Assembly: GCF_001435575.1 (NCBI RefSeq)
Contig: NZ_AZEA01000005.1
Coordinates: 1-64,000, forward strand
Origin: Lentilactobacillus sunkii DSM 19904
GTDB lineage: Bacteria > Bacillota > Bacilli > Lactobacillales > Lactobacillaceae
Length of the DNA: 64,000 nt
Direction of reading: 5' to 3'
This document shows positions 30,083-59,314 of the stretch, piece by piece. Positions within the stretch are counted from its first letter, which is position 1. Each line of letters begins with the position of its first letter. A program made the translations under genes and the position numbers. Under the pieces are notes generated by a model. The model ran no database searches, was not told where the DNA came from, and was given only the letters and a program-made list of their open reading frames with translations.

Positions 30083-30433
30083 ATGACAAACACAACTTGG
30101 AAAGAATCACTACAATCAGAAAAAGCATTTAACGATTTCATCATTGATTACTTTAAGGATCACAAGCAATTAACCGGAAATTACGAGACAACTTCATATT
30201 ACGAGTATTATACCGTTACGTTGAACAGCAAAAAGGGCCTGATTATTACCCTGATCAGTTCAGTTAACCCTGCTGTTAACTCAGATGGCCCAACCATCCC
30301 ATTCAAGGACGTTGAGACCATCAGCGTTGAAGAATTCCGTCAACTCATTCTCCACAAGAAGTTTGCCGACATGCACACTTCATTGGCAGATGTCTTCCAG
30401 ACCGTTGCCGGTGTCCCTGATTCAACTAAGTAA
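30083..30433 (+). CDS. Unrecognised small protein, five-copy family (member 1)
   Basis: A 116-residue soluble protein, no signal peptide or membrane segment. Conserved across the five family members: a Trp near residue 6, FxDFI, a YF..H..LTG..Y block, SYYEYY followed by TV.L, an ITL strand, an E..S.E.FR.L(I/V)L(H/N)KKF segment and SLADVF near the C-terminus. AAAGGAAG precedes the ATG at 30083. It is the only member not beside a transporter or hydrolase in the uronate locus, but it has a perfect cre box. It diverges from the nudix gene. Confidence 0.6.
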   Translation: MTNTTWKESLQSEKAFNDFIIDYFKDHKQLTGNYETTSYYEYYTVTLNSKKGLIITLISSVNPAVNSDGPTIPFKDVETISVEEFRQLILHKKFADMHTSLADVFQTVAGVPDSTK

Positions 30434-30469
30434 TTTCAAATTATAACCAACTTAACTCAACAAAAAATG

Positions 30470-30512
30470 TGCGGTTATCCAAGTCTTGGACTTGTGATAG
30501 CCGCATATTTTT
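30470..30512 (+). terminator. Terminator of small family member 1
   Basis: TGCGG-TATC pairs with GATA-CCGCA, with an inner CAAGTC/GACTTG stem and a TATTTTTTA tail. Confidence 0.8.
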
Positions 30513-30534
30513 TATTTTCTATTTTCTAATTCTA

Positions 30535-31992
30535 TCAATGAATAATCTTCCTGTTCGGATCCAAAACATTAATCACCAGCACGACCACAAGCATCGTGAC
30601 CACCCCGACAAACACCATATGAAGTGCTGTGAGGACGATCGGATCGATCAGTGAACGATTGACCACAACTGCGGTACCCTTCGAACTGATGACATTATTG
30701 ACCTGTGAGAAGGTAATGCCACCATGGAGCTGCAGGCGCACGACCAGGTTCAGAATCGCCCCATAGACACCTGCCATGACGGTCTGACCAAGAGAGCGGC
30801 CCAACGTCAATACAGAAGTCGCTGAACCCACCATCTCGTTGGGGACTAAATGCTGGCTGAGCACAGTATTCATGCTGACAACAACCCCCATACCGATTCC
30901 ATTGACCATCGCAATCACATAAAAGGCCCAAACAGGAAATGACAGACCAGCAAAAATAAGGGATACATAACTGATCAGCATCACACTGATCAAAGCCACT
31001 GCAATCTGCTTTGGCACAAAGTGGGCAATCAATTTCCCAACGAAAAAGGATGCTGCCAGCCACATAATCGAACTTGATGTGACCACCAATCCGGCGACGG
31101 TTGCCGAAACCCGGTACAACGACTGCAGCCAAATCGGGAAGTACATCTGATAGCCAATCAAGACACCGCTCAAAATAGTGGCGGTCACAATTTGAATCGT
31201 AAAAGTTTTCGACTTAAACATGGTCGGAGAAATTAACGGATCGGTAAATCGTTTTTCTTGGTGGACCAGCAAAATAACCGAAATGAGTGTAATCACCAGC
31301 AATCCGGCTGCCAGGACCGGTATCGTGTCCAGCGCTTGGATGCCTAACAACAAGGTAACCAAAGAAACCGCCAGCCACAGAATTCCAAACCAATCGATCG
31401 TCAGGTTGCTGCTCAATTCAACATTTTCGTGATAACCCAGCCAAACCAACAATGCAACGATGATCCCAAGCGGCACGTTAACAAAAAATACCCAGTGCCA
31501 GGAAAGATGGTCTACGAGAAAACCGCCGATTAACGGCCCCACCAGAGCTGATAAGCCCCACGCTGTATTATTGAGTGCAAGCACATTTGCCCGTTCTTTA
31601 AAGCTGAAAATATCGGCAATAATGGTAAACGTGAGCGGCATCACGGCACCGGCACCAATTCCCTGAATTGCCCGGGCAATGATTAGGAATAAAATTGAAG
31701 GCGATAGACCGCTTAATAGAGAACCGATCGTAAATACAATCACGCCCCACTGAAAAACGTTTCGGCGCCCCATCGTATCAGCCATCTTGCCATAAATCGG
31801 TGTGGTAATTGCGGTTGTCAGCAGATAAGCACTCATGATCCAGCTTTGATATGCCAACCCGTGCAGCTCACTGATAATTGACGGCAACGCCGTTGTTACA
31901 ATAGTCACTTCAACAGAAGTCATGAAAGTCGCAATAAAAACAGCGGTCATGATTACCCACCGTTGATGTTGAACTAATTTTGAATGATTCAT
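30535..31992 (-). CDS. MFS drug transporter, DHA2 (14-span) family
   Basis: A 485-residue integral membrane protein with about 14 hydrophobic segments. The N-terminal FMTSVEVTIVTTALPSI and the VGPLIGGFLVDHLSWHW and RAIQGIGAGAVMPL motifs are those of EmrB/LmrB-type drug:H+ antiporters. The substrate is not predictable. The gene is convergent with small family member 1 and divergent from the acetyltransferase gene. Confidence 0.9.
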   Translation of the reverse strand: MNHSKLVQHQRWVIMTAVFIATFMTSVEVTIVTTALPSIISELHGLAYQSWIMSAYLLTTAITTPIYGKMADTMGRRNVFQWGVIVFTIGSLLSGLSPSILFLIIARAIQGIGAGAVMPLTFTIIADIFSFKERANVLALNNTAWGLSALVGPLIGGFLVDHLSWHWVFFVNVPLGIIVALLVWLGYHENVELSSNLTIDWFGILWLAVSLVTLLLGIQALDTIPVLAAGLLVITLISVILLVHQEKRFTDPLISPTMFKSKTFTIQIVTATILSGVLIGYQMYFPIWLQSLYRVSATVAGLVVTSSSIMWLAASFFVGKLIAHFVPKQIAVALISVMLISYVSLIFAGLSFPVWAFYVIAMVNGIGMGVVVSMNTVLSQHLVPNEMVGSATSVLTLGRSLGQTVMAGVYGAILNLVVRLQLHGGITFSQVNNVISSKGTAVVVNRSLIDPIVLTALHMVFVGVVTMLVVVLVINVLDPNRKIIH

Positions 31993-32083
31993 TTTTTCAG
32001 ATCTCCTATCGTGCTATGATAAGAATTATTTATTAATTCAAATGCGCACAATAAGATGATACCACATGCCCAGGAGGACAAAA

Positions 32084-32578
32084 TTGGAATTACACTTTGA
32101 ATCCGCTCAGATGGATGAACTCCAACAAATTATGTTAATCGAACACGCCGGATTTTCTGAAGAGGAAGCCGCAACTCGAACCGCAATGCGAGATAGAATC
32201 AAGCTTTATCCAGAAACTTTTGTGGTTGCCAAAGTTCCCACCGGACAACTTGTTGGCTACGTTGTCGGTCCTGCGTTCGATCAACGATATTTAACTGATG
32301 ACTTATATGCTCAGTCCCATCCCAATCATCCAGAAGATCCCTATCAAACCGTTTTGAGTCTGGCCGTTGATCCTGACTTCCAACATCATGGGATTGCCAG
32401 TCAATTACTGACCAAGTTCGCAAAGGTCGCAAAAGCCCAGGGACGGTCTGCCGTTACCCTCACCTGCTTGGAAACCCTTGTCTCATTTTACGAAAACAAC
32501 GGCTACAAGAATGAAGGCGTTTCTGCGTCCAGTCACGCAGACGAAACCTGGTACAACATGGTATTGCCACTGACATAA
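32084..32578 (+). CDS. GNAT-family N-acetyltransferase
   Basis: A 164-residue acetyltransferase with the acetyl-CoA-binding motif A segment LSLAVDPDFQHHGIASQLL (about residues 89-107) and C-terminal FYENNGYKNEG. A TTG at 32084 has AGGAGG (32072-32077) at 6 bases. An ATG at 32066 would place that same ribosome site inside the gene, so I prefer the TTG. Substrate unknown. Confidence 0.82.
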   Translation: MELHFESAQMDELQQIMLIEHAGFSEEEAATRTAMRDRIKLYPETFVVAKVPTGQLVGYVVGPAFDQRYLTDDLYAQSHPNHPEDPYQTVLSLAVDPDFQHHGIASQLLTKFAKVAKAQGRSAVTLTCLETLVSFYENNGYKNEGVSASSHADETWYNMVLPLT

Positions 32579-32692
32579 TTCGTAAGGGTTCATTAAGAGC
32601 ATCAATTTTTAAGCAAGATTGCTTGAACCATGAATAATGGAATGATATTATTCAGGCGAAATGTATTTTATGCCATTTTTATGGGGGTCATT

Positions 32693-33523
32693 ATGAAAAA
32701 AAGAAGTTTCATTCTCGTTGCAGTGGCAAGCATTGCCTTTGCACTATCAGTTCCAATTACATTGGATACACCAACAACTTCGGTTACTTATGCAAAATCG
32801 ACTAAACGCATCGCTGGAAAAACGGTTGCCAAAGCGATTAAAAGCACGCCTGATTTGAATCCAACTTCAAGTGTCCGCAAATACCCAGCATATATTTACG
32901 ATAAATACTGGAAAGTCTTCGACCGTTGGTACAATGTTCAGCCAATGAGTGAACCCGGCACATTCAACTCAAAACACACCGCCAAAGTATACGTTGCCAA
33001 TAAAGCATTAAAATCCTATACCTATACTGCAATGCAGAATTGGAACAAGGCCCTCAAAGTTAAAGCATTCAAGCTGGGGACCAAATCCAACCACACAATC
33101 ACCGTTGGATTTAAGAATGCCGGCACCGGCGAAGGCAGCTGGGATGGCTACTATATCACCAGCAAGCTTTTCATCAACTATAATTTTTTTGACAATGCAA
33201 ATTACATGCCGGCAGCTTATAAAGCCATCACAGGTAAAGCCATGCCGTCCGCGGATAAACCAAACAGTGCCGAATATCAATCGATTTATGATACGTACTG
33301 GAAATCCGTGGTCACGCATGAACTGGGTCACAGCTTGGGGCTTGATCATACACCGTACTCCAACGACATTATGGAGGCTGATTCCGGTACCAGGAGCGGT
33401 GACGCCAAGTATACCTGGAACAGTACAAAAGTTGTGAATGACGATTATGCAATCTTTGAAGACAAGCTATCCTCACGGGATATTAACCGTGCCAAGCTCA
33501 CGAAAGTTTTGGGATATTGGTAG
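32693..33523 (+). CDS. Secreted matrixin-like zinc protease
   Basis: A 276-residue protein with an N-terminal signal peptide (about residues 1-34, ending near VTYAKS). The zinc-binding site is HELGHSLGLDH at residues 209-219, the HExxHxxGxxH metzincin form, with a possible Met-turn IM at 226-227. Residues 35-200 form an N-terminal region with no motif I can name. GGGGG precedes the ATG at 32693. It is probably an extracellular peptidase acting on proteins or on the cell envelope. A long hairpin repeat follows directly. Confidence 0.7.
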   Translation: MKKRSFILVAVASIAFALSVPITLDTPTTSVTYAKSTKRIAGKTVAKAIKSTPDLNPTSSVRKYPAYIYDKYWKVFDRWYNVQPMSEPGTFNSKHTAKVYVANKALKSYTYTAMQNWNKALKVKAFKLGTKSNHTITVGFKNAGTGEGSWDGYYITSKLFINYNFFDNANYMPAAYKAITGKAMPSADKPNSAEYQSIYDTYWKSVVTHELGHSLGLDHTPYSNDIMEADSGTRSGDAKYTWNSTKVVNDDYAIFEDKLSSRDINRAKLTKVLGYW

Positions 33524-33529
33524 AAAACA

Positions 33530-33650
33530 GAGTGTGGGAGCCGGCGATTTGACCCCTGAATTTAAGGAAATAACGCGATTATTCCGGGTCCTGGAATGGT
33601 CGCGTTATTTCCTTAAATTACTGGGGTCAGCCGGCTCCCACACGTTTCAA
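33530..33650. repeat. Long hairpin repeat (copy C)
   Basis: It begins about 7 bases after the stop codon. The arms nest: GTGTGGGAGCCGGC (33532-33545) with 33630-33643, TGACCCC with TGGGGTCA and 19-base perfect arms (33560-33578 with 33600-33618). The central part is a short loop containing GGTCCTGGAATGG. The arm pattern is shared with copy D at 62.2 kb, including ATTTAAGG and TGACCCC. Confidence 0.88.
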
Positions 33651-33675
33651 CTAGATATAAGCAATGAATTAAAAT

Positions 33676-33712
33676 GAGGCCCGAACAAAAGCAAAACTTT
33701 TGTTCAGGCCTC
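33676..33712 (-). terminator. Terminator of the CPBP protease gene
   Basis: GAGGCC-GAACAAAA pairs with TTTTGTTC-GGCCTC. It lies six bases from the CPBP stop. Confidence 0.85.
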
Positions 33713-33717
33713 TTCGT

Positions 33718-34506
33718 TTAATCATTTTTAATTAAAGAATCTTGATGATTATAACTACCATCAAACGCAACCAGGAAAATCACGGTCACAACCAGCAGCG
33801 TTCCCCAAACCGCCAAAAAGACGGGCCAAGAAGCAATCGTGCTGACCGTATGGGTAACCGAAATTCCCGGCTGCCAATCAATTAACCAGTGGATTAACAC
33901 CACCCAAGTCAACGTATTGGTAGTCAACCGAATCGACGCAAAGATTGCCCCAATCACGAAAGCATAGGTTGCCTGCTGCAACGTCTGCGCGATCCCTTGG
34001 CCGGAAATTAAATTCATGAAATGAAACAGCCCGAAGAAAATTCCGGTAGCTAATGCCGCTCCGGTAAACTTATATTTAGTCTTTTCAAAAACTGAAAGAA
34101 ACGCCGAGAATAACAAGCCACGGCATAAAAACTCTTCAAAGATTCCGGCGGATAACGCCATCATCGTATCGGCAGCCAGTGTCTTGACGTGCATCATCAT
34201 GGCAGAATGGCCAAGAATACTGATTAACAGAAATAAACCACCTAGACAGATGCCAAAAATAAATCCCCAGATTTTGGTAAAGGTTCCCAATTTAATCTTC
34301 TTTCCGAAAATCTTCATCGTGCCTAATATATAATACACAATTCCGGCAACAACCACGGCAAATACCAACCGTACACCGCCACGCATGAGAGGGCCAGTCC
34401 CTTTCACAGAGAAGTCGACTCCCATCAATAGGACAAGGAAGAGTGCTGCCAACAGAAATTCTTTTGCCCATGACATCTTGTTCTTAATCATTAATTTGAG
34501 CCCCAT
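33718..34506 (-). CDS. CPBP-family intramembrane metalloprotease (Abi/CAAX-like)
   Basis: A 262-residue membrane protein with about eight hydrophobic spans. Catalytic signatures of the family are EEFLCRG (EExxxR), FGLFHFMN and a C-terminal IHWLID. Such proteins are linked to bacteriocin self-immunity or membrane-protein processing. No bacteriocin gene is visible beside it. It lies on the same strand as the esterase and GPH transporter, perhaps in one unit. Confidence 0.85.
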   Translation of the reverse strand: MGLKLMIKNKMSWAKEFLLAALFLVLLMGVDFSVKGTGPLMRGGVRLVFAVVVAGIVYYILGTMKIFGKKIKLGTFTKIWGFIFGICLGGLFLLISILGHSAMMMHVKTLAADTMMALSAGIFEEFLCRGLLFSAFLSVFEKTKYKFTGAALATGIFFGLFHFMNLISGQGIAQTLQQATYAFVIGAIFASIRLTTNTLTWVVLIHWLIDWQPGISVTHTVSTIASWPVFLAVWGTLLVVTVIFLVAFDGSYNHQDSLIKND

Positions 34507-34557
34507 TTCTATGTATGAAAATGGCCGGAAGTTATCCGACCACTTAATTTTACTCCA

Positions 34558-35352: not shown

Positions 35353-35490
35353 GTAAATCCTCCTCAAAATAAATGACTTTTCGATTTCAGGAAAAGTATC
35401 TACCCAGAGGATATGAAGGTCAATCAAATCGACTTTAACAAACAATTGATGCTTTAATAATTATCATTCGTATTGTCAACAGGGTTTGAA

Positions 35491-37086
35491 TTATTGTTGA
35501 GCGCCGTCTTGGGGATCGTCATTTTTCTTCCAAAACTCGATTGAGTCATATTTGACCCCTGTCAGGTCTTCGCAGACTGCTTTGGTTTGCGGATCAACAT
35601 CCTTCATGCTGCCGCCTTTTTGTAATCGGACAAGTTCGGCGGACAGAACTGTGAAGGTCTTCTTACTCAAATGAAAACGGCTGACAAAAAATATGGCTAA
35701 TAAAATCATGATACCAACGCCACCGGAAACAATAAAAATAATCATATTGATTGCACTTTGCGGTTGAACGACCGCACCACTGGCTGATTCTCGGAAATTG
35801 GCAAAATCAAGCAGGTATCCGGCAACAACCCCGGCAACACCCACGCTGATCTGATTAACAAAGGTCATAACCGAGGCAAACAGACCGGCACGATTTCTAC
35901 CTGTGACCAGCGTATCCAAGTCGGGGATAAAGGGAAAGGCATTCCAAGGTGCAAAATACAAGATATACAGGCCAATTTCCCAAAATATCATAAAAATAAT
36001 CAGCCAGACCATTTCCGCAGCCGGTTTGGCAAGAGCAATGAACGTCCACCCAAAACAACTCACAAGAATTAACGAGAAGCCAAATAAATCCAAAGTTCGA
36101 TAACTGATCTTGGTAATGGCAAAGCCGGCAATAATTGTAACCGGAATTGAGACAATGCTTAAAGACTGCAAAAGTCCTGATAAGCTGGTTGTCTTGCCCA
36201 ACACATAAACAATGTAATAAACAAACACTGTGGTAAACATGGTTGCTGCAAAATACGAGCTTAAATAGATTCCCATATGAAGCCGGAAAGTTTTAATTTT
36301 GAACGTCGAAAAATAATTCTTTAATACTGATTTAAGGCTGGCCTTTTGCCCATCGTTTTCTTCCAGGGCTTCAGCTTCCATTTTTTTGGCCTCATCCTTG
36401 GTCACAAAATGCTCCCATGTAGAATTATATGTCACAATAATCAGGAAAAATGTCACGATTGAAAATGCGGCCTGCATGAGGATATATGGTTCAGGTGATG
36501 TCTTCGGAAAGTATTTAAATAACTGAGCTGGGATAAATTGTGTGAGCATCCCACCCAGTCCAGCCAAAACCATTTGCATCGTGGACATCTTTGTTCGATT
36601 ATTGAAGTTTTTTGTCATTTCATTTGGCAGGGTTTCCCACGGAATTTGGAGGGTTGACATTAGCACCGTCACAATCACGTATGTAATCAGATAATACCAG
36701 AAGTTCATTCCAGCCACCCACAGTGTAATGGCAACTAATACTGACGGTGCAGCAGCCAAAATGAATAAATGACGGCGGCCAAACTTTCGGCCCAACTTAT
36801 ATTTATAAACATTGTCGGAAATGTTCCCCATAACCAGAGATACCACCGCATCAGCAACTCGGCCGATTAAAAAAATGGTGGCCCCTTGCCCGGCACTCAA
36901 ACCGGCAAAGGTGGTGTAAAAAAACATCAGCCATGCTCCAACGAGTCCCTGCATTGAAATGCTGAAGAATGAGAAGACACCATATCCTAATGATCGCCAA
37001 ACACCGATTTTGCCACGGTTTTGATAAATCCTTTTAGTCGCATACTCGTCCCAACCGTCGTGAACGTTTTGCTTTTCATTGTCCAT
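35491..37086 (-). CDS. GPH-family sugar/uronide:cation symporter, copy 1
   Basis: A 531-residue membrane protein with 12 or so hydrophobic spans. GPH-type signatures include the loop KLGRKFGRRHLFIL after the second span and the D-containing NISDNVYKYK segment. This family (MelB/UidB-like) imports glycosides, pentosides and hexuronides with H+ or Na+. Here the substrate is likely a uronide or oligosaccharide. It is a collinear duplicate of 47825-49420. Upstream are an AT-rich operator palindrome and a cre-like box. Confidence 0.88.
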   Translation of the reverse strand: MDNEKQNVHDGWDEYATKRIYQNRGKIGVWRSLGYGVFSFFSISMQGLVGAWLMFFYTTFAGLSAGQGATIFLIGRVADAVVSLVMGNISDNVYKYKLGRKFGRRHLFILAAAPSVLVAITLWVAGMNFWYYLITYVIVTVLMSTLQIPWETLPNEMTKNFNNRTKMSTMQMVLAGLGGMLTQFIPAQLFKYFPKTSPEPYILMQAAFSIVTFFLIIVTYNSTWEHFVTKDEAKKMEAEALEENDGQKASLKSVLKNYFSTFKIKTFRLHMGIYLSSYFAATMFTTVFVYYIVYVLGKTTSLSGLLQSLSIVSIPVTIIAGFAITKISYRTLDLFGFSLILVSCFGWTFIALAKPAAEMVWLIIFMIFWEIGLYILYFAPWNAFPFIPDLDTLVTGRNRAGLFASVMTFVNQISVGVAGVVAGYLLDFANFRESASGAVVQPQSAINMIIFIVSGGVGIMILLAIFFVSRFHLSKKTFTVLSAELVRLQKGGSMKDVDPQTKAVCEDLTGVKYDSIEFWKKNDDPQDGAQQ

Positions 37087-37205
37087 GAATACAATGATCT
37101 CCTTTTCTAGCGTATCTTAATTTACCCATGATGGGTTTAAGAATCGTATAACTTTAAACTTCACAATCCCTAATTGATGAATTATTAATTTGTAACATTT
37201 TAAAT

Positions 37206-37258
37206 TAGAATACTAATATTCTACTTTGTTATAATAGTTCTAACGGAAAACGCTGTCA
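37206..37258 (-). promoter_or_regulatory. Operator palindrome and cre box upstream of GPH transporter 1
   Basis: TAGAATACTAATATTCTA (37206-37223) has 7-base arms around CTAA. GGAAAACGCTGTCA (37245-37258) matches the cre consensus at 13 of 14 positions. Both lie between the transporter and the kdgK terminator. The remainder of 37087-37390 holds only AT-rich DNA and the terminator. Confidence 0.65.
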
Positions 37259-37299
37259 ACCACGATTCCACGTTTTGGGCGCAGATTAAAAACAAAAAC

Positions 37300-37328
37300 G
37301 GCTTCTACCCACTCTGTAGGTAAAAGCC
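37300..37328 (-). terminator. Terminator of kdgK copy 2
   Basis: GGCTTCTACC pairs with GGTAAAAGCC, and a T-run follows on the minus strand. Nearly the same hairpin is at 49728-49757 beside the duplicated transporter. Confidence 0.8.
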
Positions 37329-37390
37329 ACACCTGTTTTCAGTTAGATTTCATCTGAGAAATCAAGATTCATTCAATTTGGATATTTGGT

Positions 37391-43019: not shown

Positions 43020-44279
43020 TTATCTCGTTACAGAATATCCGGTAAGAGTGACATAATAATCATTACTACCGAACCGATCACCTGCTTTATCAAACCAAAC
43101 CCCATTTTCGTCCATCACAGTGATGCTTAATTGATAATCATCTCGTGGCAGTATTGGTGAAACATACCGCAATCCATCACTTGCCACCAAACTATAAAAA
43201 TCAATAACTGTGTCTTGAACCATGTGACCACGCGAATCAGTTAGTTTAATTTTCGCGTACCCACCATGCCTATCAGTGTGTCCGTATAACATAACCCTGG
43301 TTCCATTATATCGAAACGATCGTGATTTATTTGGAATATTTGATTGAAAGTCCAGCTTGGACTCATTTTTATTCAAAATGTATGGGGCGTCTTTCTTCCA
43401 ATCCCACGCATCCCAATATTCCGGTATCTCCATCTCATCACCATGAACGGTAATCGGAAGCCAGACCTGTGTCGCACTGGATTTTTGTTTAGGGAAGGAC
43501 CAGCGATCTCCCATATACATTGGAACTCTACCCTTCTCGGTTTGCAATTGATAGACAAATGAGCATTGGGAATTGTAGGTCAAGGTGCCTTGGGGACAGA
43601 ATAATCCTTTCTTTACCCAGGGGCCACGAATGTTTGTCGCAGTCAGATAATAGTTGTCATTTCGTTCCCAACTCGTCTTGTTGGAAAACATAATGAAATA
43701 ACGATCGCCTGACCGGAACATAGCTGGAGATTCTCCTCCAACTGCAATATGGTGGGCAACTTCCTCCTCGACATACAAATAATCCTTTGAAAGTTTGAAG
43801 ATATTACCTTCATGGGTTAATAGATAGGCAGTTCCATCGTCATCAATAAAACTTCCCATATCCCACAGCTTAATTGGTTTCCCGTTAAACTGTAATGGGC
43901 CAACAAATTTGAATGGTTTGTCAATATTGTCAGTTGTAGCAACTCCAATATATGGGTCATTATATTTCAGATCATCCGTATGCATCAGCATGACATAATG
44001 ATTGTCGGGAGTTTGTAAAACTTTTACCCTCTCGCCAATTCGATTTGATCCCAGCAATCCGCTTTTTTGAGTTGATAAAGCCATTCCATCAAAATGCCAA
44101 TTTGATAAATCAGTTGAAGAATATTTGGAAAATCCGACGAAGTGGTTCACATCATCAGTTTTGTACTCACCAAATAGATAGAACTTATTATCAACCTTAA
44201 TTAGGCATCCTGCTTCTGCATTAACTGGATCATTATTTTGATCGTACCATGGAACGCCATTGTATATAATATTCCCCAT
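43020..44279 (-). CDS. GH43-like hydrolase resembling exo-beta-1,3-galactanase
   Basis: A protein of about 419 residues, no signal peptide, so intracellular. The N-terminal beta-propeller start with VNAEAGCLIK and FYLFGEYKTDD, the central ESPAMFRSGDRYFIMFSNK and the MYMGDRWSFPK motif resemble GH43 subfamily 24 exo-beta-1,3-galactanases; other beta-propeller glycosidases are possible. The C-terminal ~100 residues look like a beta-sandwich. The ATG at 44279 follows GGAG. Between the GPH transporter and family member 2, it probably acts on imported galactan-type oligosaccharides. Confidence 0.62.
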   Translation of the reverse strand: MGNIIYNGVPWYDQNNDPVNAEAGCLIKVDNKFYLFGEYKTDDVNHFVGFSKYSSTDLSNWHFDGMALSTQKSGLLGSNRIGERVKVLQTPDNHYVMLMHTDDLKYNDPYIGVATTDNIDKPFKFVGPLQFNGKPIKLWDMGSFIDDDGTAYLLTHEGNIFKLSKDYLYVEEEVAHHIAVGGESPAMFRSGDRYFIMFSNKTSWERNDNYYLTATNIRGPWVKKGLFCPQGTLTYNSQCSFVYQLQTEKGRVPMYMGDRWSFPKQKSSATQVWLPITVHGDEMEIPEYWDAWDWKKDAPYILNKNESKLDFQSNIPNKSRSFRYNGTRVMLYGHTDRHGGYAKIKLTDSRGHMVQDTVIDFYSLVASDGLRYVSPILPRDDYQLSITVMDENGVWFDKAGDRFGSNDYYVTLTGYSVTR

Positions 44280-44302
44280 CAAATTCTCCTTTTTCAGTTA
44301 TT

Positions 44303-45742
44303 TTAGTCGGCTGACTCATCAGACTTCTGTGGTTTATGAAGTTCAACATTTAGTTTTTCAACAATTTGAGCATGCTTTTCTTCAGTCAGCTTTACTTTTG
44401 CCAAGAATATGATTAATGAAATAATCATGAACACAGCTGGAACAACGAACGCTGACAGATGGAAAGTTTGAACGTTTTGAGCCGAAAGATGAGCTGCTTT
44501 GGTTGCATTTCCCATTCCCGAGATAATCACAATAAATCCTACAATTCCGCTTGAAAGAGCACCGGCAATCTTATCTAACGATCCATGAACAGAAACCGTA
44601 ACTGCCTCGTTTCGAATGCCATGCTTCAACTGTTCATATTCAATCGAATCAATACCAATCATCATAGTAACCAGCGCAATCAGTTGTTGTGGCAGGAAGT
44701 ACAGAATTGTAGCGATAACAACCAACACAAGGTTCTTGCCAGAGACAACGAACAGAAGCTCAGATAGCAGCATCCCGCAGATAGCCACGATGTATACTCG
44801 ACGACGGGTAATCATTTTAGATAGAACCGGATAGAATGGAACCGAGAATATTCCGCATAAAGTTGACGCAGCACCAACAACCCAATACCAAGCTGGACGA
44901 GCCAGAACATAGTTATAAATATAAAAGATTGATGGCTTACTTGTAACGTTACCAATAGCAAATACTAAATAGGTTAAAGAAATCCACATTAATTGATCAT
45001 TTTGGAAAATCGATTTAAAGATGTCGGTGATAGATGCTCGTTTCCGACTCTTTCTGATGGCACTTGTATTTTCCTTAACATTGGCCATTGAAATTGTCAT
45101 CGTAACCATGCAATAGATTGCGAGAATCAAGCCCAACCAGAACCATCCTTGAATGCCTTGGGTATGATGACCAGTTGACAAATATGTGAAGAATACAATT
45201 GCTGGAACCATGAACAGTGGAATAATATCCCCACCCCCAAGAGCTGCTCCAACACGGGCAAACGAATTGATAATGCCTCGTTCCTTTGAATCCACACTCA
45301 GTGCAGGAACCAGTCCGGCAAATGATGTGTCTTTAATTGTATAAACAAAGTCCATCAATGCATAGAATGCAACAACGGTAATTGCTAGCAAAGCATAATT
45401 TTGATCCAACAATCTTAGAAATCCTGAATAAAGGATAATCAGTAAGACTGCATGAATCATGGTTGCACCCCACGCCCATGGCCGAAACTTGCCCCAGCGG
45501 GTGGTTTTAGCATTATCGATAAAACCAGCAATCAGTGGATCAAAGAATATTTCAATCAATCGAATTACAACAATCGAGCTCGTAAGTAACGCAATTAATG
45601 AGTTTGCGTTTTTAAGCCCTGAGAATAATGACGTTGTGGCATAAATGATGAATGTATTGGCCATGAGGTTATAGGCCATATCATGCCCAGCCTCACCAAT
45701 TGTATATGCGACACGCTGCTTCATTTTACTTGTAGCTGCCAT
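44303..45742 (-). CDS. GPH-family sugar:cation symporter
   Basis: A 479-residue MelB-type membrane transporter with about 12 spans. The N-terminal GEAGHDMAYNLM and the loop FIDNAKTTRWGKFRPW (cation/sugar site Asp plus RWGKFRPW) are standard. It precedes the GH43-like gene by 20 bases, so it likely imports the substrate of that hydrolase. The promoter is shared back to back with the AraC gene. Confidence 0.9.
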   Translation of the reverse strand: MAATSKMKQRVAYTIGEAGHDMAYNLMANTFIIYATTSLFSGLKNANSLIALLTSSIVVIRLIEIFFDPLIAGFIDNAKTTRWGKFRPWAWGATMIHAVLLIILYSGFLRLLDQNYALLAITVVAFYALMDFVYTIKDTSFAGLVPALSVDSKERGIINSFARVGAALGGGDIIPLFMVPAIVFFTYLSTGHHTQGIQGWFWLGLILAIYCMVTMTISMANVKENTSAIRKSRKRASITDIFKSIFQNDQLMWISLTYLVFAIGNVTSKPSIFYIYNYVLARPAWYWVVGAASTLCGIFSVPFYPVLSKMITRRRVYIVAICGMLLSELLFVVSGKNLVLVVIATILYFLPQQLIALVTMMIGIDSIEYEQLKHGIRNEAVTVSVHGSLDKIAGALSSGIVGFIVIISGMGNATKAAHLSAQNVQTFHLSAFVVPAVFMIISLIIFLAKVKLTEEKHAQIVEKLNVELHKPQKSDESAD

Positions 45743-47768: not shown

Positions 47769-47808
47769 AAACGGCATGGCCCGATCGGTTTCCGGAGACA
47801 TGCCGTTT
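47769..47808. other. Intergenic hairpin between GPH transporter 2 and small proteins
   Basis: 10-base perfect arms AAACGGCATG/CATGCCGTTT around a 20-base loop. It has no T-run on the minus strand, so it may be an RNA-processing or stability element rather than a terminator. Confidence 0.55.
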
Positions 47809-47824: not shown

Positions 47825-49420
47825 TTAAGATTGTTTCTGAAATTTAGGATCATCGTTCTTCTTCCAGAAATCAATTGAATCATAATCCACACCGGTTAAG
47901 TCTTCACAGACTTCCTTGGTATGTGGATCAACTTCTTTAGGACTACCACCCTTTTGGAGACGACCCAATTCTTGGGCAAGAACTTTAAAGGTCTTCTTGC
48001 TTAAGTGGAAGCGAGCTGCAAAGAACATCGCCAATAAGATCATGAAACCGACCCCACCGGAAACGATGAAGATAATCATGTTTGTAGCACTGGCAGGCTG
48101 TGATACAGCACCGCTGGCTGACTGACGGAAGTGAGCAAAGTCAAGTAAGTATCCGGCAACAACTGATGCCAAGCCTTGACTGATTTGGTTAATGAAAGTC
48201 ATAACTGAGGCAAATAATCCGGCACGGTTTTTACCAGTAACCAAAGTATCCAAATCAGGAATGAATGGGAAGACATTCCATGGCGCGAAGTACAGGATGT
48301 ACAGACCAACTTCGTAGAATGACATCCCAACAATCAACCAAACCATCATGTGGGCTGGACGAGTCATGGCAACGAAAGCCCAGTTGATGGCACTAATGAG
48401 AATTAATGAGTAACCAAACAGGTAAAGTGTCCGATAAGAAAACTTTGTAACGGCAAATCCAGCGATAATGGTAACGGGGATTGACACAATACTCAATGAT
48501 TGTAAGAATCCGGAGGTACTGGTTGACATCTTTAATACATAAACAATGTAATAAACAAACACAGTTGAGAATAAGATCGTTGCGAAGTAAGAACTTAAGT
48601 AAATACCCATGTGAAGTCTGAAGGTCTTAATCTTGAAAGTCGAGAAGTAATTCTTCAATTCTGACTTCAGGTTAGGCTTTTCACCATTATTTTCTTCAAG
48701 CGCTTCAGCTTCCAACTTCTTGGCTTCTGCCTTGGTTACAAAATGCTCCCAAGTTGTGTGGTAAGTCACTAAGATCAAGAAGAAAGTGGCAACTGAGAAG
48801 ATTACCTGCATAATGAGGTATGGTTCTGGTGATGTCTTTGGGAAGAACTTGAATAATTGAGCTGGAATGAATTGAGTTAACATTCCACCTAATCCGGCAA
48901 GTACCATCCGAGTCGTTGACATCTTAGTCCGCTCGTTGAAGTCTTTGGTCATTTCGTTTGGAAGAGTTTCCCAAGGAATCTGAAGGGTTGACATCAAGAC
49001 AGTTACAATCAGGTAAGTAACCAGGTAGTACCAGAAGCTCATCCCGGCAACCCACATTGTAATGGCAATCAGCACTGATGGCGCAGCTGCCAGAATGAAG
49101 ATGTGTCGACGGCCAAACATCCGACCGAGCTTGTACTTATAAATGTTGTCTGAAATGTTACCCATAACCAGGGAAACAATGGCATCAGCCACACGACCGA
49201 TTAAGAAGATGGTGGCACCTTGCCCAGCCGTTAAGCCGGCGAATGTGGTGTAGAAGAACATCAACCAGGCACCAACTAATCCCTGCATTGAAATACTGAA
49301 GAATGAGAATGCACCAAATCCTAATGATCGCCAAATTCCGATTTTTCCACGACTTTTATAAATGCGTTTGTTGGCATATTCATCCCAACCGTCGTGAACA
49401 ACTTGCTTTTGATTGTCCAT
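47825..49420 (-). CDS. GPH-family sugar/uronide:cation symporter, copy 2
   Basis: A 531-residue membrane transporter, a near-duplicate of 35491-37086 along its whole length, including the C-terminal GVDYDSIDFWKKNDDP block. The loop KLGRMFGRRHIFIL and TFAGL...GRVADA segments are family signatures. It probably imports a uronide-containing sugar. It is followed by two small family proteins. The promoter carries a palindrome and a perfect cre box. Confidence 0.88.
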   Translation of the reverse strand: MDNQKQVVHDGWDEYANKRIYKSRGKIGIWRSLGFGAFSFFSISMQGLVGAWLMFFYTTFAGLTAGQGATIFLIGRVADAIVSLVMGNISDNIYKYKLGRMFGRRHIFILAAAPSVLIAITMWVAGMSFWYYLVTYLIVTVLMSTLQIPWETLPNEMTKDFNERTKMSTTRMVLAGLGGMLTQFIPAQLFKFFPKTSPEPYLIMQVIFSVATFFLILVTYHTTWEHFVTKAEAKKLEAEALEENNGEKPNLKSELKNYFSTFKIKTFRLHMGIYLSSYFATILFSTVFVYYIVYVLKMSTSTSGFLQSLSIVSIPVTIIAGFAVTKFSYRTLYLFGYSLILISAINWAFVAMTRPAHMMVWLIVGMSFYEVGLYILYFAPWNVFPFIPDLDTLVTGKNRAGLFASVMTFINQISQGLASVVAGYLLDFAHFRQSASGAVSQPASATNMIIFIVSGGVGFMILLAMFFAARFHLSKKTFKVLAQELGRLQKGGSPKEVDPHTKEVCEDLTGVDYDSIDFWKKNDDPKFQKQS

Positions 49421-49629: not shown

Positions 49630-49680
49630 AATACTAATATATTAGCATCTTTATAATAACGCTTGTTGAAAACGCTGTCA
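49630..49680 (-). promoter_or_regulatory. Operator and perfect cre box upstream of GPH transporter 2
   Basis: CTAATATATTAG (49634-49645) is a perfect 12-base palindrome within AATACTAATATATTAG. TGAAAACGCTGTCA (49667-49680) matches the cre consensus at all 14 positions. Nothing else is seen in 49421-49776 besides the terminator. Confidence 0.8.
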
Positions 49681-51801: not shown

Positions 51802-51838
51802 AGTATATTCATCCTTCCATTAACGGAACAGCTGAGAA

Positions 51839-52921
51839 TCAACTTTTAGCCTTTTCCAGTGCTTCCCACAATCCGAGCAGATACGTAATCCCGAGTGCCC
51901 GATCGTAGAGCCCATATCCTGGACGGCCGTCTTCATCCCAAATATTGCGACCATGGTCCGGACGAATATAGCCATCGTAATCAGTATCATGCAATGCCTT
52001 CATGATTTCAAACATATCCAATGAACCTTCACTGGATGGATGAGCTGACTCATGGAAGTCACCCTGCTTGTTAACAAACTTGATGTTTCGAACGTGCATG
52101 AACGGTACCCGGTCCTTAGGTACGAATTCGCGGATAATTGCCGGTAAGTCGTTATTCTGGTTCTCACCAAGGCTTCCAGTACAGATTGTAAAGCCGTTGT
52201 ATCGTGACTCGTACAGCTTTTCAATTCTGAGCATGTCATCGCGGTTCTTGAAAATCCGTGGTAGACCAAACAATGGCTTCGGTGGATCATCCGGATGCAT
52301 TGCCATTCGAACATCATACTTCTCACAAACCGGAATAACGGCATCGAGGAAGTACTTCAAATTCTCCACCAATTTATCTTCATCGACATCTTTATATGCG
52401 TCAAATAAATCTTGGAGGGCTGCCAATCGTTCAGGTTCCCAACCAGGAAGTGAGAAACCGTTTGAACCGGATTTCATGTGGGCCATCAATGCTTCTGGAT
52501 CTTTAGGCAGCTTGGCTTGTTCATACATCATCGCATTTGAGCCATCGGCCAATTGATGATGCAGATCAGTTCTTAACCAGTCAAAGACCGGCATGAAGTT
52601 ATAACAGATAACCTTGATGCCCACTTTCGAAAGGTTTTTAATTGTTTGAATGTAATTTGCGATGTACTTGTCGCGGCTTGGCAGGCCAATCTTGATGTCA
52701 TCATGAATGTTGACTGACTCAATCACCTCAAGCTTTAAGCCGGCATCGGTCACTTGTTTTTTTAATGCATTGATCTTGTCTTGCGGCCAAACTTCGCCCA
52801 CAGGAACATCAAACAACGCACCAACTACTTGTTTGGTTTGAGGAATCTGACGGATCTGTGATAAGGAAATGTCATCGTCCTTTTCACCGAACCAGCGGAA
52901 TCCCATCTTAATCTGTCCCAT
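51839..52921 (-). CDS. uxuA: Mannonate dehydratase, copy 2
   Basis: A 360-residue enzyme that converts D-mannonate to KDG. Its motifs KMGFRWFGEKDD, ICYNFMPVFDW, MAMHPDDPP, ICTGSLGE and RPDHGRNIWDE match copy 1 at 19631-20707 through its whole length. It probably leads an operon with the GH115-like gene downstream, linking glucuronate release to its breakdown. Divergent from the GntR gene. Confidence 0.95.
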   Translation of the reverse strand: MGQIKMGFRWFGEKDDDISLSQIRQIPQTKQVVGALFDVPVGEVWPQDKINALKKQVTDAGLKLEVIESVNIHDDIKIGLPSRDKYIANYIQTIKNLSKVGIKVICYNFMPVFDWLRTDLHHQLADGSNAMMYEQAKLPKDPEALMAHMKSGSNGFSLPGWEPERLAALQDLFDAYKDVDEDKLVENLKYFLDAVIPVCEKYDVRMAMHPDDPPKPLFGLPRIFKNRDDMLRIEKLYESRYNGFTICTGSLGENQNNDLPAIIREFVPKDRVPFMHVRNIKFVNKQGDFHESAHPSSEGSLDMFEIMKALHDTDYDGYIRPDHGRNIWDEDGRPGYGLYDRALGITYLLGLWEALEKAKS

Positions 52922-52983
52922 TATTTCCTCCTTGAAAAGACATGATACAATTTAGTAAATGAAGAATACTTTAGTAAATATTG

Positions 52984-53125
52984 CTAATATATTAATCTAG
53001 TATTCTAATATATCAATTACTTAAAATTTACCACCATGTGTAACCGCTGTCAATGGTAAGCGACAATTTCTTTCAACATCCTATAAATCTTTCCCTGCTT
53101 AGTGGTACAATTAGAATGCTAATAC
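52984..53125. promoter_or_regulatory. uxuA/GntR divergent control region: operators and perfect cre
   Basis: CTAATATATTA (52984-52994) and TATTCTAATATATCAAT (53001-53017) lie on the uxuA side. TGTAACCGCTGTCA (53039-53052) matches cre at all 14 positions. ATTAGAATGCTAATAC (53110-53125), with TTAG/CTAA arms, lies by the GntR start and suggests autoregulation. Confidence 0.78.
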
Positions 53126-53145
53126 AACAAATAATGAGGTTTAAT

Positions 53146-53811
53146 ATGCAAAGCTTAAATGAAGTCGCTTATGAAGCTATTTTAAACGACATTTTAAAAT
53201 TAAAATTTTTGCCTGGTGAAAAGATCCAGGATAAGACGCTGATCGACCGTCTAAATATCAGTCGCACCCCTGTTCGGGAAGCCATTTTACGCCTAAAAAA
53301 TGACGGCTTGATGATGACCGTTCCCCAAAGCGGCACATATGTGACTAAGATCAGTCTGAGTAGCGCCCTAAATGCCCGTTTTGTCCGCCAGAGTGTTGAA
53401 CGGAGTATTGTCAGTGAAGCGGCAAAGAAAATGTCAAAGATGGATATTCTCGACAGCCGAACCGTTATCAGCAAACAGCAAATTGCAGCTGAAGAGCACA
53501 ATGCAGTCGACTTCTTCTACTTGGATAATGATTTTCACAAAAGCTTTTATAAAGCTACGAACCGTCTGCAAGTGTGGGATTGGCTCGAAAATCTGTCACT
53601 CCAGCTTGATCGTTACCGATTCCTGCGAATCCAGCAAACCAACATGCCGCTTGATGAACTCATCAAGGAGCATACGGAAATCCTGGATGCCGTGGAAGCT
53701 CATGATGCTGATGCCGCTGAAAAGTATGGCTTTAATCATTTGAATTTGATGCTTGCCGAAAAAGATGAATTGATTAAACAATTTCCAAGTTATTTTGCTG
53801 ATGAAAACTAA
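53146..53811 (+). CDS. GntR/FadR-type (FCD) transcriptional regulator, copy 2
   Basis: A 221-residue repressor with winged helix-turn-helix (IDRLNISRTPVREAILRL, about residues 30-47) and an FCD domain with DNDFHKSFY and a C-terminal His-rich pair. It is collinear with the regulator at 20877-21542, including the PQSGTYVTKI linker. The ATG at 53146 follows a TGAGGT site, and an upstream ATG at 53053 lacks one. It is the most likely regulator of the CTAATATAT sites. Confidence 0.88.
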   Translation: MQSLNEVAYEAILNDILKLKFLPGEKIQDKTLIDRLNISRTPVREAILRLKNDGLMMTVPQSGTYVTKISLSSALNARFVRQSVERSIVSEAAKKMSKMDILDSRTVISKQQIAAEEHNAVDFFYLDNDFHKSFYKATNRLQVWDWLENLSLQLDRYRFLRIQQTNMPLDELIKEHTEILDAVEAHDADAAEKYGFNHLNLMLAEKDELIKQFPSYFADEN

Positions 53812-53822
53812 AGATCATATCA

Positions 53823-53854
53823 AAAAATCCTACCATGAAATTGGTAGGATTTTT
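53823..53854. terminator. Bidirectional terminator
   Basis: AAAATCCTACC pairs with GGTAGGATTTTT. It separates the regulator and the DUF2264 gene. Confidence 0.88.
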
Positions 53855-53864
53855 GTGTTATTGA

Positions 53865-55751: not shown

Positions 55752-55778
55752 TGCTAAGATCACCTCATCATATTATTT

Positions 55779-55792
55779 TGAAAGCGCTTTTA
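55779..55792. promoter_or_regulatory. cre-like box before DUF2264
   Basis: TGAAAGCGCTTTTA matches 13 of 14 positions of the cre consensus. It lies about 30 bases upstream of the start. Confidence 0.6.
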
Positions 55793-55881
55793 CAGTATTA
55801 AGAATACCGCGTATTTTACTAAAATGCAAGATGATTTAGAAAGTATTTTCCTAAAATTAACTTTTATTATGGTAAACAAAA

Positions 55882-55902
55882 AGACAGCCGTTATGGCTGC
55901 CT
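55882..55902 (-). terminator. Terminator of lacLM
   Basis: AGaCAGCC pairs with GGCTGcCT, with a run of T on the minus strand. It follows the lacM stop by 12 bases. Confidence 0.75.
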
Positions 55903-55913
55903 CATGCATGCAT

Positions 55914-56873
55914 TTATGCTTTCGTAATCTTAAATCCAAAATCAATATCCTTGCCAGCTGGAATGTGGTATTGTTCTTCAACATCCCTGCCCCAGCTGTC
56001 AATGCCGCCGACACCACGAACCGCACCTAGAATCGAAACAACAGTGCGTCTTGGTAATGGCAGCTCTTCTTGATGGGTCGCGTTCTCAAGCTCTTCAGCC
56101 GTATATGGTAGGCAGCTAAAGGCAAATGGAGCACCATCTTTTTCAAATTTGATACTAAACGGCGTATCGGAGTGGTCTGAACTGTCCTTGGTGGTATTTC
56201 GGGTAACAGTTACCCAATCAGTCTTCATGTGCACACCACAGTCTTGTGGGACCATGTAGTTGGTCACAGGCAGGCCGTCGACCTTATACTCCCCGGGAAT
56301 TCCGCCAGCCATTCGATCCGGATAAGTTTCACCAGACAAGCCAGCGTACTCAAAGCCGGTAGCCGCTGTTGGCAAAATGAAGCGCATCCCAAATACCGGC
56401 AAATCAGGCAATTGATCGTTTCCAGTATAGTGGGTATGAACCTTAATAACGCCATCTGGTGTTACCGTATAACTGACATTCACGTCGGTTCTTGGAATGG
56501 TCTGTGTCCGATAGTGATAAACCACTTCAACTTTATCAGCAAACTCGTGGTTGGAATATTTGTTATTACCAGGAGCACTTGGAAATTCAATCAATTGATC
56601 ATTGATTTTAATATCAACTTTGTCTGCCCCTGAAAACATATCGGCACCATACCACTGAACAGCTTGCTTGGAGAAGCCGTTACCGTGGTCATTATCGGTG
56701 GTTGCCCGCCAGAAAGTCGGCTTGGGTTCGCGATACATCCATTCACGACCGTTAATCACCATGGACTCCATCCCGCCTCGGGTGTAATTGAAAATGTAGT
56801 GGAAATCCTCGCCACCAACACCAATGCCACCGTCACCGTATATCACATGCAATTGTTTATTTGTGTTGACCAT
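55914..56873 (-). CDS. lacM: Beta-galactosidase small subunit
   Basis: A 319-residue protein corresponding to the C-terminal (beta-sandwich) half of GH2 beta-galactosidase, including [19 protein letters not shown] near the start and [12 protein letters not shown]. It completes the active site with LacL as a LacLM heterodimer, as in other lactobacilli. Its start overlaps the end of lacL by 17 bases, so translation is coupled. Confidence 0.95.
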
Positions 56874-58746
56874 AGTAATATTTCACCTCCTGCATTGCTG
56901 GCTTTTCAGTTCGATCCGCAAACATCAAACCGTCACCTGAAAATTCATAGTCAGACATCCGGTCATCAAAGTCGCCGCCATATCTGAGTACTTTTTTGCC
57001 GGTCACCTCATCGTTGACTTCAATGGCTTGGTCAATGAAGTCCCAGATAAAGCCGCCTGCATACATTGGATACTTGTCGATCAAGTCAATATATGATTTC
57101 ATGCCGCCAAGTGAGTTACCCATATCATGCATGTATTCGCACAGCATAAACGGCTTCTTTGGATCATGATCCAAATAATCTTTAATTTCATCAGGAGAAG
57201 CGTACATCCGACTTTCAACATCGGAAATAACATCTTCGTATTTTCTGTTCTGAACAACCCCTTCATAGTGAACCAAACGGGTTGGGTCAACACTCTTGTA
57301 GAATTCTTCCATCGCCTGAATATCGTCACCGGCATAGGATTCGTTTCCCAGTGACCAGAAAAGAATGCTGGCATGGTTCTTAAGCATCTCATAATTATTT
57401 CGTGCTCGGTCAATGACAGCAGCTTTCCACTGTGGTACGGAACCCGGAACGTTGTATGATGGCTCAACCGCACCAAGCTTCTGCCAGGTACCGTGAGACT
57501 CCAAATTATTTTCAGCCATCACGTAAATCCCATTAATGTCACATAAGTGATACCACAACGTGTGATCAGGATAGTGGCAGGTTCTCACAGCATTGATGTT
57601 GTTCTTCTTGAAGGTTCGGATATCAGCCTTCATATCGTCGACGGAAACAACCCGGCCGGAATGGCAATCCCATTCATGGCGGTTAACGCCGTTAATAATC
57701 AGGCGCTTACCGTTCAACGTGATAACCTTGTCGGAATTAATTTCAATCTTCCTGAAGCCAAATTTGTAAGGCACAATCTCAAGGACATGACCATCTTTAT
57801 CATCAATTTCAATTGTGAGCTGGTAAAGATAGGGATCATGATTGTCGTAGAGATGAACGTTTTTGAATTCAATATCTTTTAGCGAAATTGAATCGGTAAC
57901 CGGTTGAGTTTCGTCGTATAGTTGCTTTCCGTCAGCATCCGTCACTTGTACTTTTGCTGTGGCACCGGACTTGTTAACCGTCATCTTGGTGTCGACGTTC
58001 AAAGTTCCATCTTTAAGATCATCAGACAACGTTGGCTTGATTGTCAGGTCCTCAATATGAATTTCAGGTTGGGCAATCAACGAAACATCCCTGAAAATCC
58101 CAAAGAATCGGAACATATCCTGGTCTTCCAGCCATGCCGCTGTGCTCAGCTTAAAGGCTTCCACTGCCAACGTGTTCTTACCTTCCTGCAGATAAGGTGT
58201 CAAATCAAACTCCGACGGTGTAAAACTGTCTTCCGCATAACCCAGAAAATGCCCGTTCAGCCAGACGTACATGGCCTTTTCGACACCATCAAAGCGAACG
58301 CGGACCTTTTTATCTTTAAATTCTGAATTCAGAGTAAATTTTTTGATGTATTGACCAACTGGATTATCAGTCGCCTCACTGAACTGCCCCTCAGCCTTGT
58401 CATTTTGGTCAAGCGCGTATGCCGGACGGCGATAAATCTTGCCTTCCCAAGGATACATCGTGTTAATGTAATGAAATTTATCGTATCCCGCAAATTCAAT
58501 GTGTTGAGGGACCTTGATATGATCAAAGTCACTGCTGTCAAAATCGGCAGCATAAAAATTCTTGATTCGGTGCATTGGGTCCTTTGCATAAGCAAATTGC
58601 CACTGCCCGTTTAAGCTTTGCACATAACTGCTTTGACCATTCCTAATCTCATCATTACTTTGATAAAATTGATGGTCGCTGTGTGCAGGAATCATCCCCA
58701 CCCGAAATGTTTCGGGATCGTCTAGCCATTTAATGTCTGGTTCCAT
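56857..58746 (-). CDS. lacL: Beta-galactosidase large subunit
   Basis: A 629-residue GH2 catalytic subunit. Visible motifs are the sugar-binding jelly roll (residues 1-220), the acid/base [11 protein letters not shown] and the nucleophile segment [12 protein letters not shown]. It hydrolyses terminal beta-galactosides. In this setting it could remove galactose from imported oligosaccharides rather than serve lactose alone. The ATG is close to a terminator-separated small-protein gene, and a weak cre-like box lies at 58791-58804. Confidence 0.96.
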
Positions 58747-58790
58747 GAACTTATCACACTCCTCTAGCTTAGTATGAACACTAACTACAA

Positions 58791-58804
58791 TGTAAGCGCT
58801 TTAT
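58791..58804. promoter_or_regulatory. Weak cre-like box before lacL
   Basis: TGTAAGCGCTTTAT agrees at 12 of 14 positions with the cre consensus and lies 45 bases upstream of the lacL start. Confidence 0.45.
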
Positions 58805-58878
58805 GGATTTTTGTCAATAAACAATTTATTCCATTGATTAAATGTTTAATAATATTTACTAAATATTTTAAAACAAAA

Positions 58879-58905
58879 AATCAGGCCCTATGTAAGGACC
58901 TGATT
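58879..58905 (-). terminator. Terminator of small family member 5
   Basis: AATCAGG-CCT pairs with AGG-CCTGATT, and on the minus strand a TTTTTT run follows. It separates this gene from lacL. Confidence 0.85.
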
Positions 58906-58933
58906 AATAGTGACAAGATTAATGACTATAACT

Positions 58934-59314
58934 TTATTTATTCCCGTGGCCGTGCTTAAAGCGGGCATTTGGTTCCGATGCAAGCATCTTTGAAAAGACG
59001 TCGGTCAAGCTTTCACTCTGATCTTCGAACTTCTTGTTCAAAACAAGCTGTCTGAAATCTTCGATCGAGATATGTTCAACATCTTTAAATGGAAGCGGCG
59101 CGTTTACGTCGCCGGTGGTTTGATTCAAACCGGTCTTCAGGGTGATAATCAACCCTTCTTTACTGTCCAAAGTAACCACGTAATATTCGTAGTAACTTGG
59201 GGTTTCATAATTTCCAGTTAAATCTTTGTGATCCTTGAAGTATTCGTAAATAAAGTCTGCAAATGCATCCTTTGACTGTAAAGCTCGTTTCCAGTCATCT
59301 GAGTTCACTGACAT
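58934..59314 (-). CDS. Unrecognised small protein, five-copy family (member 5)
   Basis: A 126-residue protein and the most diverged member. It keeps FADFI, YF..H..LTG..YE, SYYEYY, ITLKTGLN, FRQLVLNKKF and S-L-DVF, but loses the QTVAGVP end and has a Lys/His/Gly tail. It follows the MFS transporter by 39 bases and is probably co-transcribed with it. Confidence 0.58.
   Translation of the reverse strand: MSVNSDDWKRALQSKDAFADFIYEYFKDHKDLTGNYETPSYYEYYVVTLDSKEGLIITLKTGLNQTTGDVNAPLPFKDVEHISIEDFRQLVLNKKFEDQSESLTDVFSKMLASEPNARFKHGHGNK

Follow-up and report, generated by a model that had tools for sequence, protein, structure and literature searches.

The 64,000-nucleotide (nt) stretch of Lentilactobacillus sunkii DSM 19904 analysed here (the window; contig NZ_AZEA01000005.1, positions 1 to 64,000) contains five paralogous genes, copies 1 to 5, whose products of 116-130 residues belong to a previously unrecognised protein family that has phage relatives, is kept by selection and reaches up to eight copies per genome. 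The evidence presented below supports a soluble protein which is tied to sugar use and catabolite control and is partly paired with particular symporters. An earlier note on this DNA had described the five paralogues and their common motifs, placed four of them behind transporter genes but none behind the GPH gene at 35491, and predicted no membrane span. All five open reading frames (ORFs) were confirmed, as were the motifs in every copy and the neighbouring genes including the GPH gene at 35491, which no family copy follows; the highest Kyte-Doolittle mean over 19 residues was 0.67-1.03, and no membrane span was found. Identity to copy 4 (47361) was 57-69%. The phage relatives, a common promoter and three further copies in the genome had escaped that reading.

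Of the eight copies in the source genome (2.69 Mb, 79 contigs), five lie in the window, and contigs C56, C12 and C47 hold a single one each (G, C and L numbers are our labels for genomes, contigs and loci). A profile built from the five window proteins matched 13 of 301 Lactobacillaceae genomes from two genera. Within Lentilactobacillus, 18 of 24 genomes matched (17 of 21 among the better ones) with 74 matches, and the six genomes without a match were 1.2-2.0 Mb in size. A profile of 73 members matched 3 of 395 Lactobacillales genomes at E 0.01, two of them genuinely. At E 0.1 it matched 36 of 397 Lactobacillaceae genomes: 18 of Lentilactobacillus, two of Agrilactobacillus, genome G275, and 15 with weak matches (E 0.016-0.098) that were taken as chance, two of these 15 having been inspected and found to hold no evident relative. 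A match of the same profile in G489 and one of the phage profile described below in G131 were likewise taken as chance. Among the bacterial genomes searched, the family is found only in Lentilactobacillus and Agrilactobacillus. No match to a known family was obtained in Pfam, NCBIfam, PHROGs, PADLOC or PDB sequences, and no literature on the family was found, as judged by titles and abstracts of open-licence PMC papers. Wide occurrence and a role already described, which the earlier note had named as grounds against its interpretation, were thus not encountered, and its view of an unrecognised, duplicated family held. An origin as plasmid or phage cargo was rejected, as copy 4 had no tblastn match in 72,556 plasmid and 50,697 phage records; the 73-member alignment (A2) had none in viral contigs. 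Strongly expressed hypothetical genes are reported in an L. buchneri transcriptome study (PMC4521753) and could not be mapped onto the family.

Identical proteins were counted once, which gave 75 different proteins; with the truncated L099 (78 residues) left off, 74 remained for the tree, and A2 comprises 73 rows. L099 aside, family members have 102-130 residues. Purifying selection was evident from orthologous pairs, the ratio of non-synonymous to synonymous substitution rates (dN/dS) being 0.02-0.05 in 6 of 12 family pairs; in the remaining six dS was saturated, with protein identities of 70-92%. Two copies have decayed: L036 (G302:C123:35430-35777) contains three stops and no ORF, and L099 (G291:C111:215518-215752) is the truncated copy.

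The weak match in G275 (L140), through which the phage link emerged, is a 134-residue prophage protein whose gene is flanked by those for a primase and a phage transcription regulator. It shares 48% identity with SAC12B_0027 (QBJ03816.1), a hypothetical protein of Lactobacillus phage SAC12B (Tybeckvirus, Herelleviridae). A third relative of 142 residues (L148) lies in a prophage with SSB, DnaC-like, RusA-like, HNH and terminase genes. Comparison of the 73-member alignment with the L140 protein yielded a probability of 96.9 and an E value of 1.7e-10 over 95 columns, and homology to the SAC12B_0027-like proteins extends across most of the length. In the reverse search at E 0.01, a profile of the three phage proteins picked up 22 of 397 genomes: the 18 Lentilactobacillus and two Agrilactobacillus genomes already mentioned, the source prophage and one likely chance match (G131). 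Its 13 best bacterial matches (E 4e-15 to 2e-9) were without exception copies from the PPK2/RarA region, the core copies (RarA, like Nudix, GNAT, UraA, GH51, MFS c40 and AraC, is among the neighbour names presumed largely by eye). The motif DDGYYWD is complete in the three phage proteins, is reduced to a Y-D-D stretch in the core copies and is replaced in most derived ones. Judged by sequence, the bacterial family is homologous to the phage protein. It probably descends from a small phage protein: we infer that the phage form is older because it is divergent and occurs in unlike phages, the bacterial clade being restricted to two genera. Two viral-contig proteins (L144:5004-5402 and L150:42-419), which have only the core DDGYYWD...GSxSG in common with the phage relatives, perhaps represent a wider phage superfamily.

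A tree of the 74 bacterial and three phage proteins was calculated from 123 columns; it contains several long branches, and 15 of its 74 inner branches are unresolved. When rooted with the phage proteins, it places the PPK2/RarA-region copies at the base and all others as derived. Core copies have a PPK2 gene beside them (for example L104:12023-12916). A search run without a positive control detected no PPK2 in eight genomes, among them the six family-less Lentilactobacillus genomes, which precluded comparison with an empty site. Under an automatic rule (genes on the same strand, gaps of at most 130 nt) the upstream partner of the 74 copies is GPH c1 in 16 cases, MFS c0 in 11, GH30 in two, and MFS c40, GH43, another copy and an unknown gene in one each, while 41 copies are solo. 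The solo class includes L029 at a contig end and the Agrilactobacillus copies L031 and L035, which stand about 280 nt behind MFS c0-GH30; L033 and L042, counted under MFS c0, are preceded by two hydrolase genes and a less similar MFS gene. Three copies are symporter-linked beyond the rule, window copy 2 (GPH-GH43-copy) and the two L009 copies behind a frame-split GPH gene, so that at least 31 of 74 copies reside in symporter operons. Absence of a transporter link, the third ground that the earlier note had held against itself, applies to about half of the copies. In L. parakefiri (G278:C39:40583-42171) the GPH gene before two copies is split into two overlapping frames, by mutation or assembly error, and the copies are kept.

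The transporter linkage was counted in the 24 Lentilactobacillus genomes with gene pieces merged and with close relatives defined by at least 76% identity for GPH c1 and at least 85% for MFS c0. Among 16 close GPH c1 loci, 11 have a copy directly behind, one has a copy after one intervening gene and four have none; one of these four is a fragment, and another (G264:C44) lacks a copy on its contig, which may end there. Nine of 12 close MFS c0 loci have a copy directly behind, two have none and one lies at a contig end. Taken together, 20 of 28 close relatives of the two symporters are directly followed by a copy, at distances of 38-96 nt (GPH c1) and 31-66 nt (MFS c0). None of the distant homologues in the genus (0/17 GPH and 0/31 MFS) is directly followed; at one distant MFS locus (G308:C8) a copy occurs 4.9 kb further along the operon. 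The earlier note's link to transporters holds for the close relatives (20/28) and is not supported for the distant homologues (0/48). The linkage is real yet specific to particular plant-sugar symporters rather than to GPH or MFS transporters at large. Copies also occur in operons of two other transporter types, that of the GPH at 44303 and that of the MFS-like c40, named by eye only.

Orthologues of the two symporters in other genera (74-88% identity) have no copy within 1.5 kb downstream (0/18; seven GPH, 11 MFS). At two of the 11 MFS loci, both in Agrilactobacillus, a copy is found further on, behind GH30, and at two of the seven GPH loci the next gene starts like the GH115 gene that stands behind the copy in L086. 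The same symporters occur without the gene in other genera, at the two GPH loci with a GH115-like gene in its place, which argues that the gene was added to older operons; the additions are few insertion events followed by descent. Since the solo group is large and symporters do without the protein, it is neither a subunit nor limited to its neighbours.

Four exact matches to the pattern of the catabolite-responsive element (cre) were found in the window: two precede copy 1, a third precedes the operon of copies 4 and 3, and the fourth lies within an ORF. An exact cre is present upstream of 24 of 40 solo copies as compared with 57 of 459 control genes (Fisher P 4e-11), and of 16 of 28 operon copies (12 of 24 distinct operon heads; P 1e-7 against the same controls); as the copies are related, these P values serve only as a guide. 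In solo groups the counts are 7/7 at the MFS c8/GNAT locus, 3/3 at the GPH c43 locus, 9/11 in the PPK2/RarA region, 0/3 beside UraA and 5/16 elsewhere. The earlier note had proposed a cytosolic partner or regulator of sugar import or catabolism; the tie to sugar regulation at many solo loci agrees with this proposal, and the orthologues in other genera that lack a copy speak against a required partner.

Alignment of promoters from 25 chosen copies (24 of the 41 solo copies and L096) revealed one architecture common to paralogous loci, consisting of a cre, CTTG in the -35 region and a TAGAAT-like -10 hexamer. The geometry was determined for 24 of these (23 solo copies and L096). In 21 of these 24 solo-type promoters the cre or near-cre is centred at -53 to -55 relative to the predicted start and hence lies upstream of the -35 region, as in CcpA-activated genes. 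According to PMC3463425, a cre in this location marks activated genes, among them ackA, pta and ilvB; lev is an exception. The promoter geometry suggests activation of the solo copies by CcpA on glucose. Among the 10 distinct GPH c1 operon heads, the distance from the start of the cre to the first called gene is 42-91 nt at eight and 260 nt at the one in the window; the remaining head has no match. No promoter could be placed near the cre of the GPH c1 heads, and repression there is therefore only presumed; an upstream alignment of MFS c0 and GPH c1 operons likewise contained no clear common promoter.

On these grounds we tentatively favor, as a possibility well short of even, a cytosolic, catabolite-controlled modulator of sugar uptake with phage ancestry. 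An ancestral small phage protein would have given rise to a solo core copy at the PPK2/RarA region, and duplication would have supplied further copies, of which some have their own cre-bearing promoter and others entered symporter-hydrolase operons that already existed, in most cases immediately after the symporter gene. The protein may tune uptake to the carbon supply by binding to part of the uptake machinery, with the cytosolic face of an MFS-type symporter as the likeliest target. Abundant glucose would lead to production of the solo copies, whose cre is placed as in activated genes, and these would then restrain uptake in a form of inducer exclusion; operon copies would each adjust their own symporter. 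Three points favor action on symporters: the operons that contain copies represent four transporter types, with the copy in most cases next to the transporter gene on its downstream side; the genes were added to these operons rather than inherited with the transporter; and the promoter geometry suggests production of the solo copies on glucose.

Several observations weigh against this interpretation. By the automatic rule 41 of 74 copies are solo, and an exact cre is missing upstream of 16 of 40 such copies, including all three beside the UraA-like gene. Close symporters lack a copy at four of 16 GPH c1 loci, at two of 12 MFS c0 loci and at all 18 loci outside the genus, and a large part of the linkage is vertical descent from few insertions. 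A cre upstream of -35 is moreover no proof of activation, lev being the exception (PMC3463425). Nearly as likely as the symporter modulator is a protein that acts on carbon metabolism via another partner, such as an enzyme, HPr or another signalling protein, the sugar operons providing fitting expression. Copies behind hydrolase genes (GH30, GH127, GH43) and alone with a cre are consistent with such a role, and the C-terminal half, which is strongly conserved in copies of all contexts, suggests one common partner; direct insertion behind four different transporter types is left unexplained by it.

The structure check proposed in the earlier note produced models but no relative. AlphaFold2 predicted two N-terminal helices, four strands, a helix and a short last helix, with a mean pLDDT (per-residue confidence score) of 73.7 for copy 4 and 80.4 for a core copy, and three Foldseek searches gave no match at E ≤0.001. 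Nine residues are invariant in the 73 members (Y25, Y36, Y41, P77, R90, L92, K96, L105, F109), and they appear to resemble a binding surface and core more than an active site. The median isoelectric point (pI) is 4.9-5.3 in the larger groups and higher in three small ones. A hairpin of nine pairs is common to twelve core-type leaders and lies where the mRNA is predicted to begin (examples are L088 3246-3274, L111 10282-10310 and L101 9764-9792), with 93.5% of cells paired compared with 30-45% in slid controls. Covariation is weak, with one pair changed on both sides and the score reached by 28 of 500 shuffles. Of ten leaders folded, eight had no equally stable shuffle, one had a single such shuffle, and L108 formed no stable hairpin; the hairpin as such was seen in most core-copy mRNAs. 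It might stabilise the message or serve in autoregulation.

As a rather unlikely alternative, the protein could bind nucleic acid and regulate its own operon or leader RNA, in which case its four-stranded sheet and helix would resemble those of Pur-alpha. This reading could draw on the hairpin at the predicted 5' end and on a weak Foldseek likeness to Borrelia Pur-alpha (probability 0.94, E 0.11, TM score by target 0.50), but the lack of a fold match at E ≤0.001, the acidic pI of the larger groups, the weak covariation and the absence of the hairpin from L108 argue against it. Less probable again is that a phage protein was domesticated and retained because it served in defence or in superinfection immunity. 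The existence of phage relatives would fit, as would the fact that sugar transporters can serve as phage receptors, but there was no PADLOC match, no defence genes were recognised beside the copies, and cre-linked promoters and positions in sugar operons point elsewhere. A small sugar mutarotase or similar enzyme, which RbsD, FucU and RhaM call to mind by their small size and place beside sugar transporters, is highly improbable given that no Pfam or NCBIfam model matched, that the invariant residues are Tyr, Pro, Arg, Leu, Lys and Phe (albeit with some Glu and Asp nearly invariant), and that a single family serves several sugar systems as well as solo loci.

A bolder form of the uptake-modulator interpretation is itself unlikely: that a phage gene adjusting host sugar uptake was captured by a Lentilactobacillus ancestor and became a type of inducer exclusion independent of proteins of the phosphotransferase system (PTS), in which solo copies turned on by CcpA on glucose would brake several unrelated MFS symporters and each operon copy would be the dedicated regulator of a single one. 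Should the family indeed modulate uptake, the choice that heterofermentative lactobacilli make between glucose and plant oligosaccharides would become easier to understand, and there would be a case of a phage protein turned metabolic regulator; small transporter modulators and domesticated phage proteins are already known kinds. The hosts are food and silage bacteria, and species and operons with and without the gene offer ready-made comparisons.

Family copies, neighbouring genes and promoter elements in the window.
Feature	Position	Strand	Remark
Copy 1, 116 residues	30083..30433	+	Solo gene, flanked by Nudix-like gene (presumed by eye) and MFS gene
Copy 2, 122 residues	42612..42980	-	Behind GPH and GH43 genes
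GH43-type hydrolase gene	43020..44282	-	Between GPH gene and copy 2
GPH-type symporter gene	44303..45742	-	First gene of copy 2 operon
Copy 3, 130 residues	46918..47310	-	Tandem, behind copy 4
Copy 4, 123 residues	47361..47732	-	Directly behind GPH gene
GPH-type symporter gene (group c1)	47825..49420	-	First gene of operon with copies 4 and 3
Copy 5, 126 residues	58934..59314	-	Directly behind MFS gene
MFS-type transporter gene (group c0)	59354..60655	-	Precedes copy 5
Exact cre-pattern match upstream of copy 1	29890..29904	-	
Second exact cre-pattern match upstream of copy 1	29931..29945	-	Centre at -54 from predicted start; retained in related solo copies
Predicted -10 hexamer of copy 1, TAGAAT	29980..29985	+	
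Exact cre-pattern match upstream of GPH gene of copies 4 and 3	49666..49680	+	

For copy 1 the start at 30083 is favored over an in-frame ATG at 30065 by the ribosome-site-like stretch GAAAGGAAG. The intergenic gaps are 92 nt between the GPH gene at 47825 and copy 4, 50 nt between copies 4 and 3, and 39 nt both between the GH43 gene and copy 2 and between the MFS gene at 59354 and copy 5. The 47825 protein scored 124 bits, below the 231-bit cut-off of the GPH model TIGR00792, and exceeded the Pfam MFS_2 cut-off. A perfect 10-bp inverted repeat with arms 20 nt apart (47769-47808) lies between this gene and copy 4; the repeat is absent from the minimum-energy fold (z -1.6), and a simple scan of the same gap found no terminator-like site. 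By eye, the window also contains two alike pairs of a mannonate dehydratase-like gene and a divergent GntR-type regulator gene (19631-21542 and 51839-53811), and two secreted-looking proteins with a zinc-protease-like HELGH motif (1799-2452 and 32630-33523). Relatives of the 32630-33523 protein (cluster c16) were found near copies of the 30083 type.

Compared with known systems, the weak four-stranded-sheet likeness to Borrelia Pur-alpha (3nm7) and YunM (7wzf) is not significant (best E 0.036) and had no counterpart among PDB sequences; nothing in literature titles on YunM explained it. HPr-type inducer exclusion is known from lactobacilli, and the action of EIIA-Glc or HPr on MFS/GPH symporters is like the outcome proposed here, in which uptake would be braked with glucose present. 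Unlike EIIA-Glc and HPr, the family proteins match no PTS-protein family in Pfam or NCBIfam. EIIA-Glc acts on LacY and MalFGK in inducer exclusion, as described in PMC10710835. Small-protein modulators such as SgrT (on PtsG), AcrZ (on AcrB) and MgtS, treated in the same source, could work alike, a small protein tuning a transporter. They generally have fewer than 50 residues there, whereas the proteins described here are soluble and have 102-130; no sequence relation to SgrT, AcrZ or MgtS is known, and the family is linked to transporters by genomic position. To SAC12B_0027 and the L140 and L148 proteins, the bacterial family is homologous by sequence; these phage proteins of 134-142 residues are more acidic than the bacterial copies (median pI 4.4) and carry DDGYYWD where most bacterial copies have PSYYE.

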